Positions 55,161-59,699 of a stretch of 64,000 bases of DNA are shown piece by piece. The position numbers and the translations under genes are program-made. The DNA is from Polynucleobacter bastaniensis. Lineage in GTDB: Bacteria > Pseudomonadota > Gammaproteobacteria > Burkholderiales > Burkholderiaceae. Under the pieces are notes generated by a model. That model did no database searches. It saw only the letters and a list, made by a program, of their open reading frames with translations, and was not told the origin of the DNA. The stretch is taken from assembly GCF_018882205.1 (NCBI RefSeq), contig NZ_JACVOU010000002.1, forward strand, positions 124,001-188,000, given 5' to 3'. Each line of letters begins with the position of its first letter. The first letter of the stretch is position 1.

Positions 55161-58100
55161 ATGTGCAAGCTCTCATTTTTCTCTGCATTCACTCTTTCCG
55201 TGGGCATTTTATTGGCGCCATCTATAGCCTTTTCGGCGCCCAATAGTGATGAGTCTGATGTTGATGTACAAAATATCAAGGCACCCCCTAGGGATGTTAA
55301 AGATATCCTCAGATTAGTTGAACAAACTAAACCAGACCTCGCTATCGTAGAGCGAGCTAAAAAAGTGGTTGCAATTCCTTTGCCAATATCACAGGACAAC
55401 GAAGTATTAAATCATTTTTACACTAGACGTTCTGCAGCATATGAGGATCTAGGAAATACTGGCGAAGCGTTAAAAAACTTAGAGATTGCAGTAAATCAAC
55501 ATCCTTCCACTACTCCACGACTGCATTTGAACGACTTAATTAGCCTGAGCGTGCTTGAAAGTTCGGTTGGCAAGCAGACTAAAGCAATTGCTATTATTCA
55601 AAAAGCACAGGCCTATCAATTATCAGCTTTGCCCAATTTGACTGGTTTTCAAATGACTATGGGTCGGCTGTTGCTGACCTACTATGTCAATTCAGGTAAC
55701 TTTGAAGCGGCGAAAAAAACACTTGATTCGATCGAAGGGACGTTAAGCACTCTAAAAAGGTCTCGATCATATATGGAGTTTGGGGCTAATTGGGAGGCCG
55801 CATATGAAAGTGCTCGCGGAATTTATTTCTCTGGTCAGGGGCAGTGGCTAGAAAGTGAGCGCTCTCTTAGAAAAACATTGCATTTACTTGAGATGCAATA
55901 TGGAAAAGTTAAAAATAGCTCATCAAAAATTGATGTTGTTGGGGATGAGACTAGAACAGCTGCCGATGCTTCTAATAATCCCCGAGTGTATGTCACTCAA
56001 ATTTCAAATAGGGAGTTAAATTTAGCTAATGTATTGTTGAGGCAGCGAAAATTAATCGATGCTGAGTTCTATGCTCGAAAATCTATTACGCTTTCCCTTT
56101 CAAGCTTTGGTTCAAATTCCATTGAGGTTGCTCGTGGCCTGAGAAGTCTTGCGGTTATTGTTAACGAGCAGGGAAGGTATGCTGAGGCAGTACTTCTTTC
56201 AAGAGCGGCATTAAGTACCGTTAAGGCTGCAGGTGCCACCGGTGCAAACACCACTCTTGCCTTAGCTCAGAGGTCGCTCGGCACTGCACTTGTAGCAGAT
56301 GGTAAATATGCTGAGGCAAATCAAGCATTCGAAGAAATGGCTTTGGGGATTAAAACTGATCCTGAGATGGCAAAAAGTTACCAGTTCGGAGACTTGGATT
56401 GGGTATTGGCAATGCTCAAGACTGGAAAGTCTAGTCAAGCTCTTGAAATGACTGGCGAGATACTTAAAAAGCTTGATACATCCTCCGACAAAAATTCACC
56501 TCGCGTAGCAATGGTAAGGGCATTTGAAGCTGCAAGTTTACAGGCCGAAAATAAATGGACAGAGGCAGATTCTGTCTATAAAGCATCTATTCCCATCTTA
56601 ATTGATCAAGCACGAAACGATGCTGAGAATGACACAACGAGTATTAAGCAGCAACAACGAATGACATTTCTTTTGGAAAGTTATTTAGCATCATTGGCAT
56701 ACACTGCAAAAAATGATCCTAATCAGGCTACATTGGCTGCGGCGCAAGCTTTCCAGGTTGCAGATATTGCAAGAGGTAGTGGTGTTCAAAGGGCCTTAAC
56801 GGCTAGTGCTGCACGTGCCAGTATTAAGGATTCCCAATTAGCCGGTCTTGCAAGGCAGGAACAGGATTTACAAAGACGAATTAATACGCTCTCAGAGTTA
56901 TTGACTGGCCTGCGCTCAGCTTCGCCTGATCAGCAGCTACCTGCTGTACAGTCAAAAGTTCGTTCGGATATTGAAGTATTTAAATCTCAGCGCGAATCTC
57001 TGAAGAAAGAGATTGAGAAAAAATTCCCTGAATATGCTGAGTTGGTTGAGCCAAAGCCCGCATCAATCGAGCGAACTCAACGCCTGTTAAAGGCTGATGA
57101 AGTTTTGGTCTCTTGGTATTTTGCAGAAAATGTTGGGTATGTGTGGGCAATAAGCAAGCAGGGAGCCCCACAATTTTCCCAGTTGGCTATTGGTCGAAAG
57201 CAAATGGCAAAACAAGTTGCTCAACTGCGTAAGGCTCTTGACCCTGGCGTATCAACAATCGACGAGATTCCTCCTTTTGATGTCGCATTGGCATACAAAC
57301 TCTATCAAGAGATTTTGGCACCAGTGGAAGCAGGCTTCAAGGGTAAAAAAGTCATGTTGGTTGTGCCCCACGCCGAACTTGGTCAGTTACCAATATCGTT
57401 ATTGGTAACTCAAGCCACTGCTCAGCCTGCTAAGGGTGGAGCGATTGCATTCGCTGGATATAAATCTGTTCCGTGGCTAACAAGAGATATTGCCGTAGCT
57501 CAGATTCCCTCTGTAACAGCGTTAACAGCACTTCGCAGTCTGCCAGAAGGTAATCCTAATCGAAAGAATTTTATTGGCTTTGGGGATCCTTACTTTAGCG
57601 GTGCTCAAGAAAAGAGCGCTCAAAAAAGTGCTGGTACGCAGTTGGCTACGCGTGGCATACCTTTGAAATTGAGAAGTGCGCCAAAGACTATGGGTGTCAG
57701 TTCTGCAGAGCTAGCACTACTTCCGCGTTTACCTGATACCAGCTTGGAGATTGAGGAAATTGGAAAAGTGGTTGGCGCCCAACCAAGCGATATCTTTTTG
57801 CATAAGCAGGCTAGCGTAAAGCAGGTAACCTCGATGGACTTATCTGACCGTAAGGTAGTTATGTTTTCAACCCATGGCTTGGTGCCCGGAGAGCTTAATG
57901 GGCTGACCCAGCCAGCTCTTGCCTTGTCATCTCCTGAAGTGACGGGAGACCAAGATGACGGTTTGTTAACCATGGATAAGGTTATTGCCCTTAAGTTAGA
58001 TGCTGATTGGGTGGTGCTGTCAGCATGCAATACAGCTGCCGGCGAGGGGTCGGGATCTGAAGCGGTATCTGGTTTGGGTAGAGCATTCTTTTTTGCTGGG

Positions 58101-58331
58101 GCTAAAGCATTATTGGTCTCTAATTGGCCCGTAGATTCAATGGCCTCCCGTCAATTGATGACTGACTTATTTAAACGTCAGCAGCAAAACCAGGGACTCA
58201 CAAAGTCAGAGGCTTTGCGACAAGCAATGCTCAATCAAGTAGATCAAGGCGGTATGAAAGAGGGTAATACGATGAAATACTCTTATGCACACCCCTTATT
58301 TTGGGCTCCCTTTGTAGTAGTTGGCGATTGA
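55161..58331 (+). CDS. Exported TPR-CHAT domain protein (caspase-like protease)
   Basis: 1056-residue protein with AGGAG eight bases before the ATG and a Sec signal peptide (LSFFSAFTLSVGILL... cleaved near AFSA, residue 29). Residues about 40-500 are TPR-like helical repeats (EALKNLEIAVNQHP, AEFYARKSITLSL, YAEAVLLSRAAL). A coiled-coil stretch at about 560-630 precedes the C-terminal CHAT domain (about 690-1056). The catalytic dyad is intact: H905 in FSTHG and C956 in SACNTAAGEG, 51 residues apart, with SNWPV after it. It should be an active peptidase, in the periplasm. First gene of a three-gene unit; function unknown. Confidence 0.9.
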   Translation: MCKLSFFSAFTLSVGILLAPSIAFSAPNSDESDVDVQNIKAPPRDVKDILRLVEQTKPDLAIVERAKKVVAIPLPISQDNEVLNHFYTRRSAAYEDLGNTGEALKNLEIAVNQHPSTTPRLHLNDLISLSVLESSVGKQTKAIAIIQKAQAYQLSALPNLTGFQMTMGRLLLTYYVNSGNFEAAKKTLDSIEGTLSTLKRSRSYMEFGANWEAAYESARGIYFSGQGQWLESERSLRKTLHLLEMQYGKVKNSSSKIDVVGDETRTAADASNNPRVYVTQISNRELNLANVLLRQRKLIDAEFYARKSITLSLSSFGSNSIEVARGLRSLAVIVNEQGRYAEAVLLSRAALSTVKAAGATGANTTLALAQRSLGTALVADGKYAEANQAFEEMALGIKTDPEMAKSYQFGDLDWVLAMLKTGKSSQALEMTGEILKKLDTSSDKNSPRVAMVRAFEAASLQAENKWTEADSVYKASIPILIDQARNDAENDTTSIKQQQRMTFLLESYLASLAYTAKNDPNQATLAAAQAFQVADIARGSGVQRALTASAARASIKDSQLAGLARQEQDLQRRINTLSELLTGLRSASPDQQLPAVQSKVRSDIEVFKSQRESLKKEIEKKFPEYAELVEPKPASIERTQRLLKADEVLVSWYFAENVGYVWAISKQGAPQFSQLAIGRKQMAKQVAQLRKALDPGVSTIDEIPPFDVALAYKLYQEILAPVEAGFKGKKVMLVVPHAELGQLPISLLVTQATAQPAKGGAIAFAGYKSVPWLTRDIAVAQIPSVTALTALRSLPEGNPNRKNFIGFGDPYFSGAQEKSAQKSAGTQLATRGIPLKLRSAPKTMGVSSAELALLPRLPDTSLEIEEIGKVVGAQPSDIFLHKQASVKQVTSMDLSDRKVVMFSTHGLVPGELNGLTQPALALSSPEVTGDQDDGLLTMDKVIALKLDADWVVLSACNTAAGEGSGSEAVSGLGRAFFFAGAKALLVSNWPVDSMASRQLMTDLFKRQQQNQGLTKSEALRQAMLNQVDQGGMKEGNTMKYSYAHPLFWAPFVVVGD

Positions 58332-58371
58332 TTTAATATCTCCTTTAAATAACCCTTATTTTGGAATGATG

Positions 58372-58806
58372 ATGAAACTTACTCAAATCTTACTTTTAAC
58401 TAGTCTCATGATTGCAAGCTCATTAGTTAGTGCAGCGCCTCTAATTAGCGCAAAAGAGGCTGCATTACCAGCAGCGTCTGGAGCGTTGGCCACGCGTGGG
58501 ATTTCTCGAGGTCCATCGGTGAAGCTAGTTTCCCCGGAGGCTGACACTCCAGTTAGCTCCCCACTTGATTTCAAGGTCAACTTTGAGGCACGTGGAGAGG
58601 GGAAGATTGATCCATCCTCAATCAAGGTCGTTTATATGAAATCCCCCTTTGTGGATTTAACGCCAAGATTGAAAAATTCTATTAGCGCATCAGGTATTGA
58701 TTTTTTAAAGGCGGATGTACCTTCGGGTTCTCACACAATCCGTGTGACAGCAAAAGATACTGATGGTCGAGAAACAAATACTGTTTTCACTCTAGTCGTT
58801 AAATGA
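58372..58806 (+). CDS. Exported Ig-like domain protein, partner of the CHAT protein
   Basis: 144-residue secreted protein. Signal peptide MKLTQILLLTSLMIASSLVSA, then a Ser/Ala-rich spacer and a beta-rich Ig-like domain (about 49-144) starting PSVKLVSPEADTPVSSPLDF and ending TVFTLVVK. I chose the third of three consecutive ATGs because GGA lies six bases ahead; 58366 and 58369 are possible. It begins 40 bases after the CHAT stop and overlaps the next gene by ATGA. The mature N-terminus has LATRGI, also present in the CHAT protein. Binding or substrate role is inference. Confidence 0.72.
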   Translation: MKLTQILLLTSLMIASSLVSAAPLISAKEAALPAASGALATRGISRGPSVKLVSPEADTPVSSPLDFKVNFEARGEGKIDPSSIKVVYMKSPFVDLTPRLKNSISASGIDFLKADVPSGSHTIRVTAKDTDGRETNTVFTLVVK

Positions 58807-59594
58807 TGAATTGCCCATACTGCCTCTCTGAAGTTGCTGAAGAGGCATCAGTCTGCAAGATCTGCACGCGGGATCTCTATTTATTTAAGCCCATGATGGC
58901 CAAGGTGGCAGAGCTTGAGAAGCGCCTTGAGGAGATTCCGAATCAAGATGCCTATGAGCATCGCATTGTAGAATTGCAATTATTGTTAGATGAACAAGTT
59001 CAAAAGCAGGTTGAGCCAAGAGGTCTTGGTTTGTCTATGCTGGATATTGTTATATATATCGGCATTCCTCTTGCGCTCCTATTGGCTGCACATGGATTGA
59101 TCTCGATTGTTTATGACACTAAGCCCTTGTACTTAAGACTGATCTCCATCATATTGCCTTTACCTTTTGGGTACTTCCTATTTAAAGGCGCTACTCGCAA
59201 ATTATTTCCTTGGTTTATGGGGGTAGTATTTTTAGCGATTGCCTCTGTGATTGGCATGAGCTGGATGACCTCTTTAGTGGATGGGTCTCCAATTTGGCCT
59301 CAAAATACATTTGAATGGCGGGAAGTTCTGGAGTATTCCGCAAGCATCGCCTTTAGTTTCTTAACCGGGATGCTTCTCGGTGGAGTCGCCTATGCGAGCA
59401 AACAAAGGCATTTACGAAAAGCATCGATCAATCCCTTCCTAAAGGCGGTTGTTACAGGCTTGGGTGAGGGACGCATTTCGCCATCAAGTTTGCATGGCCT
59501 GATGAAGAAGTTGCAGGAATACGGCGGCACTATTGTTGCGCTTGGAACTACTGCAGTATCTATCTACACTGGTCTGAAGGGCATTATTGGTTAA
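58803..59594 (+). CDS. Zinc-ribbon, coiled-coil, multi-pass membrane protein
   Basis: 263-residue protein overlapping the Ig-like gene by four bases. Residues 4-21 form a zinc ribbon CPYC-x10-CKIC; 31-70 is a likely coiled coil (AKVAELEKRLEEIPN). About four membrane helices follow (near 77-98, 109-128, 132-153, 178-198), with a basic loop after the last and a hydrophobic C-terminal end. The zinc ribbon should be cytoplasmic. It is the third gene of the CHAT unit; a membrane sensor or anchor is plausible but unproved. No named family recognised. Confidence 0.75.
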   Translation: MMNCPYCLSEVAEEASVCKICTRDLYLFKPMMAKVAELEKRLEEIPNQDAYEHRIVELQLLLDEQVQKQVEPRGLGLSMLDIVIYIGIPLALLLAAHGLISIVYDTKPLYLRLISIILPLPFGYFLFKGATRKLFPWFMGVVFLAIASVIGMSWMTSLVDGSPIWPQNTFEWREVLEYSASIAFSFLTGMLLGGVAYASKQRHLRKASINPFLKAVVTGLGEGRISPSSLHGLMKKLQEYGGTIVALGTTAVSIYTGLKGIIG

Positions 59595-59665
59595 GTAAGT
59601 ATTTCTTGATTTGATTGTCGTCCACAAAATTTAGTCAACAGTTGGGGTTCTCATTCGTTATATCT

Positions 59666-59699
59666 AATCCACTTGCACTTTGTGTAGGTGGATTTTTTA
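59666..59699 (+). terminator. Terminator closing the CHAT gene unit
   Basis: ATCCACTTGCAC / GTGTAGGTGGAT pair almost throughout, with G-U wobbles and a 3-base loop, followed by TTTTTTA. It lies 72 bases after the zinc-ribbon gene, insulating it from the comEA-like gene. Confidence 0.88.

Follow-up and report, generated by a model that had tools for sequence, protein, structure and literature searches.

Peptidase_C14 proteins and CHAT proteases belong to the same clan. Separase cleaves after arginine, caspases process themselves in the linker between p20 and p10, and in the gasdermin-linked systems a CHAT protease is found with a small partner gene. Orthocaspases have been reported, from docking and cited assays, to be specific for arginine at P1 (accessible parts of PMC8283722), and OmpA was reported in 2012 in 14 of 217 metacaspase operons (PMC3501461, likewise in part). 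Here we describe a three-gene unit in a 64,000-nucleotide stretch of the freshwater bacterium Polynucleobacter bastaniensis (GCF_018882205.1, contig NZ_JACVOU010000002.1, positions 124,001 to 188,000 of the forward strand; hereafter the window). It encodes an exported-looking CHAT protease, a small exported-looking protein (G2) and a zinc-ribbon membrane protein (G3). Across related genomes the G2-G3 pair stays constant and the protease beside it is exchanged. This arrangement suggests that the cell envelope houses a protease-driven device not described before.

The G2-G3 pair was traced in 151 Polynucleobacter genomes (three-digit G numbers denote genomes, L numbers loci). CHAT was found in 46 of them, G3 in 46 and G2 in 49, four of the G2 matches being weak. 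Of the 46 G3 genomes, 45 have a strong G2 match, and no genome without G3 has one (Fisher's exact test, P = 7e-38). The lone G3 genome without G2, G102, has a decayed locus, and the four weak relatives (about 28% identity) occur in genomes without G3. We searched the contigs of GTDB genomes with a G3 alignment and obtained 68 named loci. G2 lies directly 5' of G3 in 67 of them, and the remaining contig begins at G3. The recurrence of the trio in dozens of genomes places the unit above chance. The initial annotation of this DNA had called for a gene-neighbourhood survey of the three families, and in both collections they do co-occur; neither a lack of co-occurrence nor a CHAT gene fixed as a housekeeping gene was seen. 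The same annotation had centred on CHAT, which is not the defining part of the unit: the constant core is G2-G3, and CHAT can be exchanged for a C14 caspase.

CHAT, decayed copies counted, is present in 38 of the 46 G3 genomes. Five of the eight others have an exported-looking C14 caspase adjoining G2-G3 (assigned by the Pfam match of the neighbouring gene in G030, G036, G043 and G125, and by coordinates in G085), two carry a C14 elsewhere in the genome (G049, G092), and G055, an incomplete assembly that breaks just before G2, has neither. CHAT or C14 is thus found in 45 of 46 G3 genomes against 15 of the 105 others (Fisher, P = 3e-24, kinship ignored). Near G2-G3 in the 68 loci we counted CHAT in 50, C14 alone in 11 and no protease in seven. 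A protease separated from the pair was still counted in L117 (one open reading frame, ORF, between), L141 and L142 (two) and L172 (four), and L144 and L179, which hold both kinds, were scored as CHAT. In four of the seven loci (L116, L118, L139, L166) the sequence begins with G2 or G3 or shortly before it, and L118 has an uncounted C14 three ORFs downstream. L178 is cut inside G3 and L152 is cut 1.5 kb downstream. L131, a contig of G049, has full flanks and truly no nearby protease.

The G3 tree has 63 rows, of which 57 carry a label, and the state switches between CHAT and C14 at least eight times on it. This count comes from a quickly built tree in which 19 of the 60 inner branches are open. 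Five of the 68 loci were left out of the tree (no full-length G3 or no G2), and six of the 63 rows bear no label (the contig ends there, CHAT is a fragment, or no protease was seen). The protease can also lie beside G2-G3 on the opposite strand (L163, L174, L176, L177), as in Variovorax paradoxus CP063167.1, where the genes are annotated as CHAT, hypothetical and zinc ribbon. The exchange of the protease and these opposite-strand neighbours suggest a working link rather than joint inheritance. A common origin from one insertion, without any functional connection, would fit the single site (hldD-comEA-cysM) common to 21 of the 68 loci, but the same G2-G3 pair is found at several sites, in several gene orders, on different strands and with two protease families, and we regard this explanation as very improbable.

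The window protein matches the Pfam CHAT domain (PF12770) over residues 710-1056 with an E-value of 3e-50 and 171.7 bits against a curated cut-off of 24, and TPR repeats precede the domain. The dyad of His905 and Cys956, correctly placed in the initial annotation, shows no variation among 33 aligned rows (one of them from the window) or in the 24 rows of alignment A2. By domain and dyad the protein is classed as a CHAT protease. Its N-terminus, MCKLSFFSAFTLSVGILLAPSIAFSA, looks by eye like the signal peptide that had been claimed; the N-termini of its relatives are variable and mostly hydrophobic. The earlier picture, in which a clan CD protease is exported and has a partner in the membrane, is consistent with these sequences. 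The closest structural match of the AlphaFold2 (AF2) model (predicted local distance difference test, pLDDT, 79) is separase (Foldseek, 9hn0_B, E 5e-11). The model also matches 8eey_B from the Cas7-11/Csx29/Csx30 complex (E 1e-10), a chain which we take to be Csx29. Matches to the transmembrane anti-sigma factor DdvA (ranks 4 and 7) probably arise from the TPR part. At the hldD site of one genome, G129 (L083, 6248-13551), CHAT is duplicated in tandem, and G3 is split in two by a frame change.

Between the first strand (FIGFGDPYF) and the first helix (LPDTSLEIEE) of the CHAT domain sits the loop LATRGI. It is disordered in the AF2 model (pLDDT below 50 at residues 825-837 and 839-848), and both R831 and R838 are invariant in the 24 aligned CHAT rows. 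An [ST]RG sequence was found in this loop in 44 of the 55 CHATs of 550 amino acids (aa) or more; at least two of the 11 others (L170, L171) have it as well and were missed by the anchor pattern.

A similar motif recurs in G2. In the window and in its relatives, G2 begins with what looks by eye like a signal peptide, followed by LISxKEAxLP, then TRG[IV][STA]RGP and then a domain. The TRG[IV][STA]RGP motif is present in 66 of the 77 G2 copies adjoining G3. Six further copies have close variants, four keep RGP with an altered first part, and one (L174) has TRGITR without RGP, so that RGP is kept in 76 of 77. TR[GS] followed by a hydrophobic residue reaches a density of 5.6 per 1000 residues in G2 compared with 0.25 in the other ORFs of the loci (161,024 residues). 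The 77 G2 and 55 CHAT rows behind these counts include at least one contig twice (L156 = L242). The domain had been described as Ig-like. The exported appearance of G2 stands, and the Ig-like character is weak: the best Pfam matches, PKD, He_PIG and Big_7, have E-values of 0.02-0.04 and 14.9-15.5 bits, below their cut-offs of 23.5-24.1. Neither G2 nor G3 matches any Pfam or NCBIfam family above its cut-off. A distant G2 relative also occurs in L097 and L098 together with Sel1-repeat C14, TPR-trypsin and DUF4384 proteins (Pfam, L097 only).

The element is not confined to the loci with an adjoining G2-G3 pair. In sister loci, an exported-looking C14-DUF4384 caspase occurs with an OmpA-like protein, often accompanied by a distant G2. 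The p20/p10 linker of these caspases contains TR[GSA] or SRG in 10 of the 11 examined, although the usual Cys pattern was not found in three of them (L096, L163, L240), where the linker was assigned by position. Seven (L084, L224, L225, L226, L227, L228, L240) have two such sites about 30 residues apart. The set of 11 excludes a contig-edge fragment (L229) and a duplicate (L144), and the caspases near the OmpA matches of L214 and L217 lie outside it. In the OmpA-like partners, TR[GS] is preceded by a signal peptide and a short stretch that resembles a helix. As a control we used the 30 best OmpA-domain matches in 300 genomes, with fetched flanks of about 1.5 kb. The element was present in 8 of the 10 with a flanking protease match and in 5 of the 20 without (Fisher, P = 0.007), in a sample that leans towards the motif because the OmpA query itself had it. 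In L218 the motif precedes the signal peptide and was counted against our reading, and the protease match of L201 is weak. Four genomes of another family combine both kinds of locus, with G2, G3, C14 and C14-DUF4384 (L224-L227). OmpA-like proteins occur in these combined stretches in L225 and L227, and also in L196 and L197.

Taken together, we propose, at what we judge to be even chances, that the unit is an accessory envelope cassette in which an Arg-specific clan CD protease cuts itself and G2 at TR↓G (arrow, cut), with G3 as membrane receptor or relay. The enzyme would be an exported clan CD cysteine protease, either a TPR-CHAT as in the window or a Peptidase_C14, serving the constant G2-G3 core and cutting after arginine at TR↓G-type sites. 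A self-cut in its own exposed loop (LATRGI, or the p20/p10 linker in C14-DUF4384) could activate or tune the protease. The partner would be cut between signal peptide and domain, at TR↓GISRGP in G2 and at TR[GS] in the OmpA-like proteins. Such a cut would yield two products, a trimmed domain and an N-terminal peptide of about 20 residues that is conserved (LISxKEAxLP...TR). G3 might then detect either the peptide or the processed G2 and relay this state to the cytoplasm. The anatomy of the unit, its conservation and linkage, the protease exchange and the shared motif are observed, whereas in this scheme we infer export, cleavage, which of the arginines is P1, the relay through G3 and the trigger. 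A wider version, which we put forward tentatively, is a bacterial trans-envelope caspase cascade, which would be a new class of envelope signalling: interchangeable exported CHAT and C14 proteases would share a TR↓[GSA]-hydrophobic element in their own activation loops and in the N-terminal propeptides of their dedicated exported partners (G2, OmpA-like), and the zinc-ribbon protein would read the released peptide, which is conserved, or the trimmed domain into the cytoplasm.

It is also possible, if somewhat doubtful, that G2 regulates the protease, as its substrate-like inhibitor, as a chaperone or by docking, with TRGISRGP lying in the active site or forming the first strand of the domain, and that G3 anchors or releases G2. 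The motif directly precedes the domain, RGP (76 of 77) is kept more often than TRG, and the motif is kept whichever protease partners with G2, as would be expected of a binding motif. The linkage between G2 and G3 is also tighter than that of either to one protease. Against a regulator, TR[GS] also follows the signal peptide in the unrelated OmpA-like family, at the matching position, and it is present in the protease linkers, which is easier to explain by a cleavage site.

Several observations weigh against the proposed cleavage cassette. The [ST]RG loop is also present in CHATs without an adjoining G2-G3 (L085, L086, L088) and likewise in L090 and L091, whose contigs are short. Conversely, ordinary CHATs near G2-G3 lack it in L172, L174 and L243. 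The loop is therefore not strictly tied to G2. The C14 proteases directly paired with G2-G3 mostly have no TRG and show RGL after the Cys instead. One C14-DUF4384 caspase (L096) has no linker element, and it is among the three with a linker placed by position. Two arginines of G2 are conserved, and L232, L233 and L243 retain RGP although TRG is shifted there, so that a role in binding or folding is possible. G2-G3 persist without a nearby protease in L131, where the C14 of G049 lies about 220 kb away, and in L152 with its cut contig. The open branches of the G3 tree and the leaning of the OmpA sample count on the same side. Finally, the characterised Craspase CHATs use no conserved site (accessible parts of PMC11106740).

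G3 was expected to combine a zinc ribbon, a coiled coil and a multi-pass membrane part, and alignment and model agree with this description. C4, C7, C18 and C21 of its CxxC...CxxC pattern are invariant in 44 of 44 rows, as are H97, D105, R112, D160, P166 and E174; the invariant residues thus fall in the zinc ribbon and near predicted helix ends. In the AF2 model (pLDDT 80.7, predicted template modelling score 0.60), the zinc ribbon is followed by a coiled coil and then by long hydrophobic helices. The model places helices at residues 28-44 and 48-69 after the zinc ribbon, then at 75-104, 108-117/119-128, 134-160 and 169-208, and its C-terminal part is predicted weakly. Assuming a cytoplasmic zinc ribbon, H97, D105, R112, D160, P166 and E174 would lie near the outer helix ends, where they plausibly form a docking face. 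Among the zinc-ribbon families of Pfam, DZR_2 gives 14.6 bits, below its cut-off of 27. Foldseek found no fold relative of G3 in the PDB at E 0.001, and the best PDB sequence match has an E-value of 0.29. The role given to G3 is a guess for this reason, which also weighs against our proposal.

The unit is accessory, since four related genomes (G097, G012, G044, G058) show an empty site in which hldD is directly followed by comEA and cysM. The earlier suggestion of an accessory insertion between hldD and cysM is right in this respect, but that site is only one of several: 47 of the 68 loci lie elsewhere. In G017, G102 and G105, remnants of the unit are decaying at hldD-comEA-cysM, so part of the patchy distribution is loss. 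The 68 loci come from Polynucleobacter, Curvibacter, Hylemonella, Herbaspirillum and Paucibacter, among others, and from metagenome-assembled genomes (MAGs) named, for example, Uliginosibacterium, Paucimonas or just Betaproteobacteria or Burkholderiales. Across the order, G3 was found in 14 of 399 genomes, in two of them weakly. Two MAGs are named Candidatus Fonsibacter (L160) and Bordetella parapertussis (L166); their G2-G3 fall among betaproteobacterial loci in the tree, and the MAGs are probably misbinned or misnamed. The G+C content per kb is 0.41-0.47 in the unit and 0.44-0.49 in the flanks; a foreign origin is not clearly signalled, and we dropped G+C content as an uninformative marker of recent gain.

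Patchy presence (G3 in 46 of 151 genomes) with ongoing loss in the three genomes named above would be in keeping with anti-phage defence or abortive infection, in which a signal at the envelope sets off proteolysis and the cell is killed or arrested, like the type III-E CRISPR or gasdermin-linked CHATs. CHAT proteases have a precedent in defence (PMC9729208, in the parts available), and the initial annotation had drawn this link. Yet no G3 relative was found in 50,697 phage records, none was confirmed in the viral contigs of IMG/VR, and a single one turned up among 72,556 plasmid records; its replicon is 2.5 Mb long and non-mobilizable. CHAT, G2 and G3 themselves match no PADLOC family better than E 0.002. 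We also scanned neighbouring ORFs at the loci away from hldD (85 of 179 candidates). At E 1e-10, nine PADLOC families had matches, one of them in two ORFs and each of the other eight in a single ORF; some of these families are general domains. Pfam gave 139 families on the same ORFs; among the matches listed (25 of 139 families), most are metabolic, transport, tRNA-synthetase or TPR families, each in at most two ORFs. With PADLOC matches so few and scattered, and with hldD, comEA and cysM as neighbours in the window, we found no support for a defence role and consider it unlikely.

A constitutive processing protease that matures surface adhesins or other envelope proteins, with G2 as its helper, appears more improbable still. 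CHATs elsewhere in the genus do adjoin large unidentified ORFs (L092, L093, L094), and in L092, the one tested, a CHASE2-guanylate/adenylate cyclase gene (by Pfam) lies beside the CHAT. These CHATs, however, belong to a different subfamily without the [ST]RG loop and G2-G3, and the hldD-cysM interval of the window holds no recognised adhesin gene. Two-partner-secretion adhesins were considered as substrates and dropped, since the only large-ORF neighbours are those of this other subfamily.

Another gene recurs next to the pair. An exported-looking alpha/beta hydrolase lies just 3' of G3 in 15 of the 68 loci by sequence clustering (L119, L120, L123, L125, L127, L129, L130, L132, L134, L136, L137, L139, L140, L143, L167), and its Pfam matches are LCAT/S33-like and weak (copies tested: L083, L104, L119). 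Other alpha/beta hydrolases lie between G3 and CHAT in L079 (Pfam) and, as one cluster, in L117, L141 and L142; L172 has one (DUF900) after G3. We weighed the hydrolase 3' of G3 as an effector; it is absent from the window.

In the window, the three ORFs run in the order CHAT, G2, G3 at the coordinates of the initial annotation (Table 1), between hldD on one side and comEA and cysM on the other. The window's genome has one CHAT match and zero C14 matches. Its gene junctions are as annotated: 40 bases between CHAT and G2, or 34 if the first G2 ATG is used, and a 4-base ATGA overlap between G2 and G3. G2 has three in-frame ATGs (58366, 58369, 58372), of which the third was taken. The strong terminator said to close the unit corresponds to a terminator-like hairpin of 13 pairs, in a scan that was overall no richer than shuffled DNA (6 terminator-like sites against a mean of 5.5, about equal). 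Promoter-like sites were fewer than in shuffled DNA (3 against 9.3).

Table 1. Features of the three-gene unit, in positions of the window
Feature	Position	Strand	Basis
CHAT, TPR-CHAT clan CD protease, 1056 aa	55161..58331	+	Pfam CHAT and TPR; export by appearance
Signal-peptide-like N-terminus of CHAT, residues 1-26	55161..55238	+	by inspection
CHAT loop LATRGI, residues 828-833	57642..57659	+	[ST]RG recurrence; R831 and R838 invariant; low pLDDT
His905 codon, CHAT dyad	57873..57875	+	invariant in aligned relatives
Cys956 codon, CHAT dyad	58026..58028	+	invariant in aligned relatives
G2, small exported-looking protein, weakly Ig-like, 144 aa	58372..58806	+	directly 5' of G3 in 67/68 loci
G2 TRGISRGP, residues 41-48, candidate cleavage or recognition site	58492..58515	+	TRG[IV][STA]RGP in 66/77 G2
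G3, zinc ribbon, coiled coil and multi-helix membrane protein, 263 aa	58803..59594	+	sequence, alignment, AF2
G3 zinc ribbon, C4, C7, C18, C21	58812..58865	+	invariant, 44/44 rows
Intrinsic-terminator-like hairpin, 13 pairs, T-rich tail	59666..59694	+	terminator scan

Exported bacterial caspase homologues are common, and the literature that we found, in the parts accessible, names no substrates for them; the G2-G3 pair is a specific, conserved partner. If our proposal is true, it would identify targets for a set of periplasmic caspases and CHAT proteases and show that one partner pair can be served by two protease families. The shared TR[GSA] element is a prediction at the level of single residues that a few point mutants could test. 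The G2-G3 pair, the protease exchange and the TR[GSA] element were not found in the literature searched, which covered little of the subscription literature; none of the three appears in the accessible parts of PMC11106740, PMC8283722, PMC6426788, PMC3501461 and PMC9729208.

Among the known systems, the Craspase TPR-CHAT (Csx29) resembles the window protein in its TPR-CHAT architecture, in its His-Cys dyad and in the fold match to 8eey_B. The window CHAT differs in its signal-peptide-like N-terminus and in its partners, which are G2-G3 and not Csx30. Craspase sites are not conserved (PMC11106740, in part), whereas a TRG-type motif recurs in the family described here. Cas7-11/gRAMP and Csx30 are not among the window neighbours (hldD, G2, G3, comEA, cysM), with no genome-wide search aimed at Cas7-11, and no gasdermin gene was recognised among these neighbours, with no search aimed at gasdermins. 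By its neighbourhood the unit is neither a Craspase nor a gasdermin-type system. Unlike the small partner of gasdermin-type CHATs, G2 has by appearance a signal peptide and a weakly Ig-like domain. Eukaryotic separase is the closest fold to the CHAT model and shares the arginine preference that we propose, whereas the window CHAT is an exported-looking bacterial protein with other partners. The bacterial metacaspases and orthocaspases (Peptidase_C14), in turn, are the proteins that stand in for CHAT beside G2-G3.

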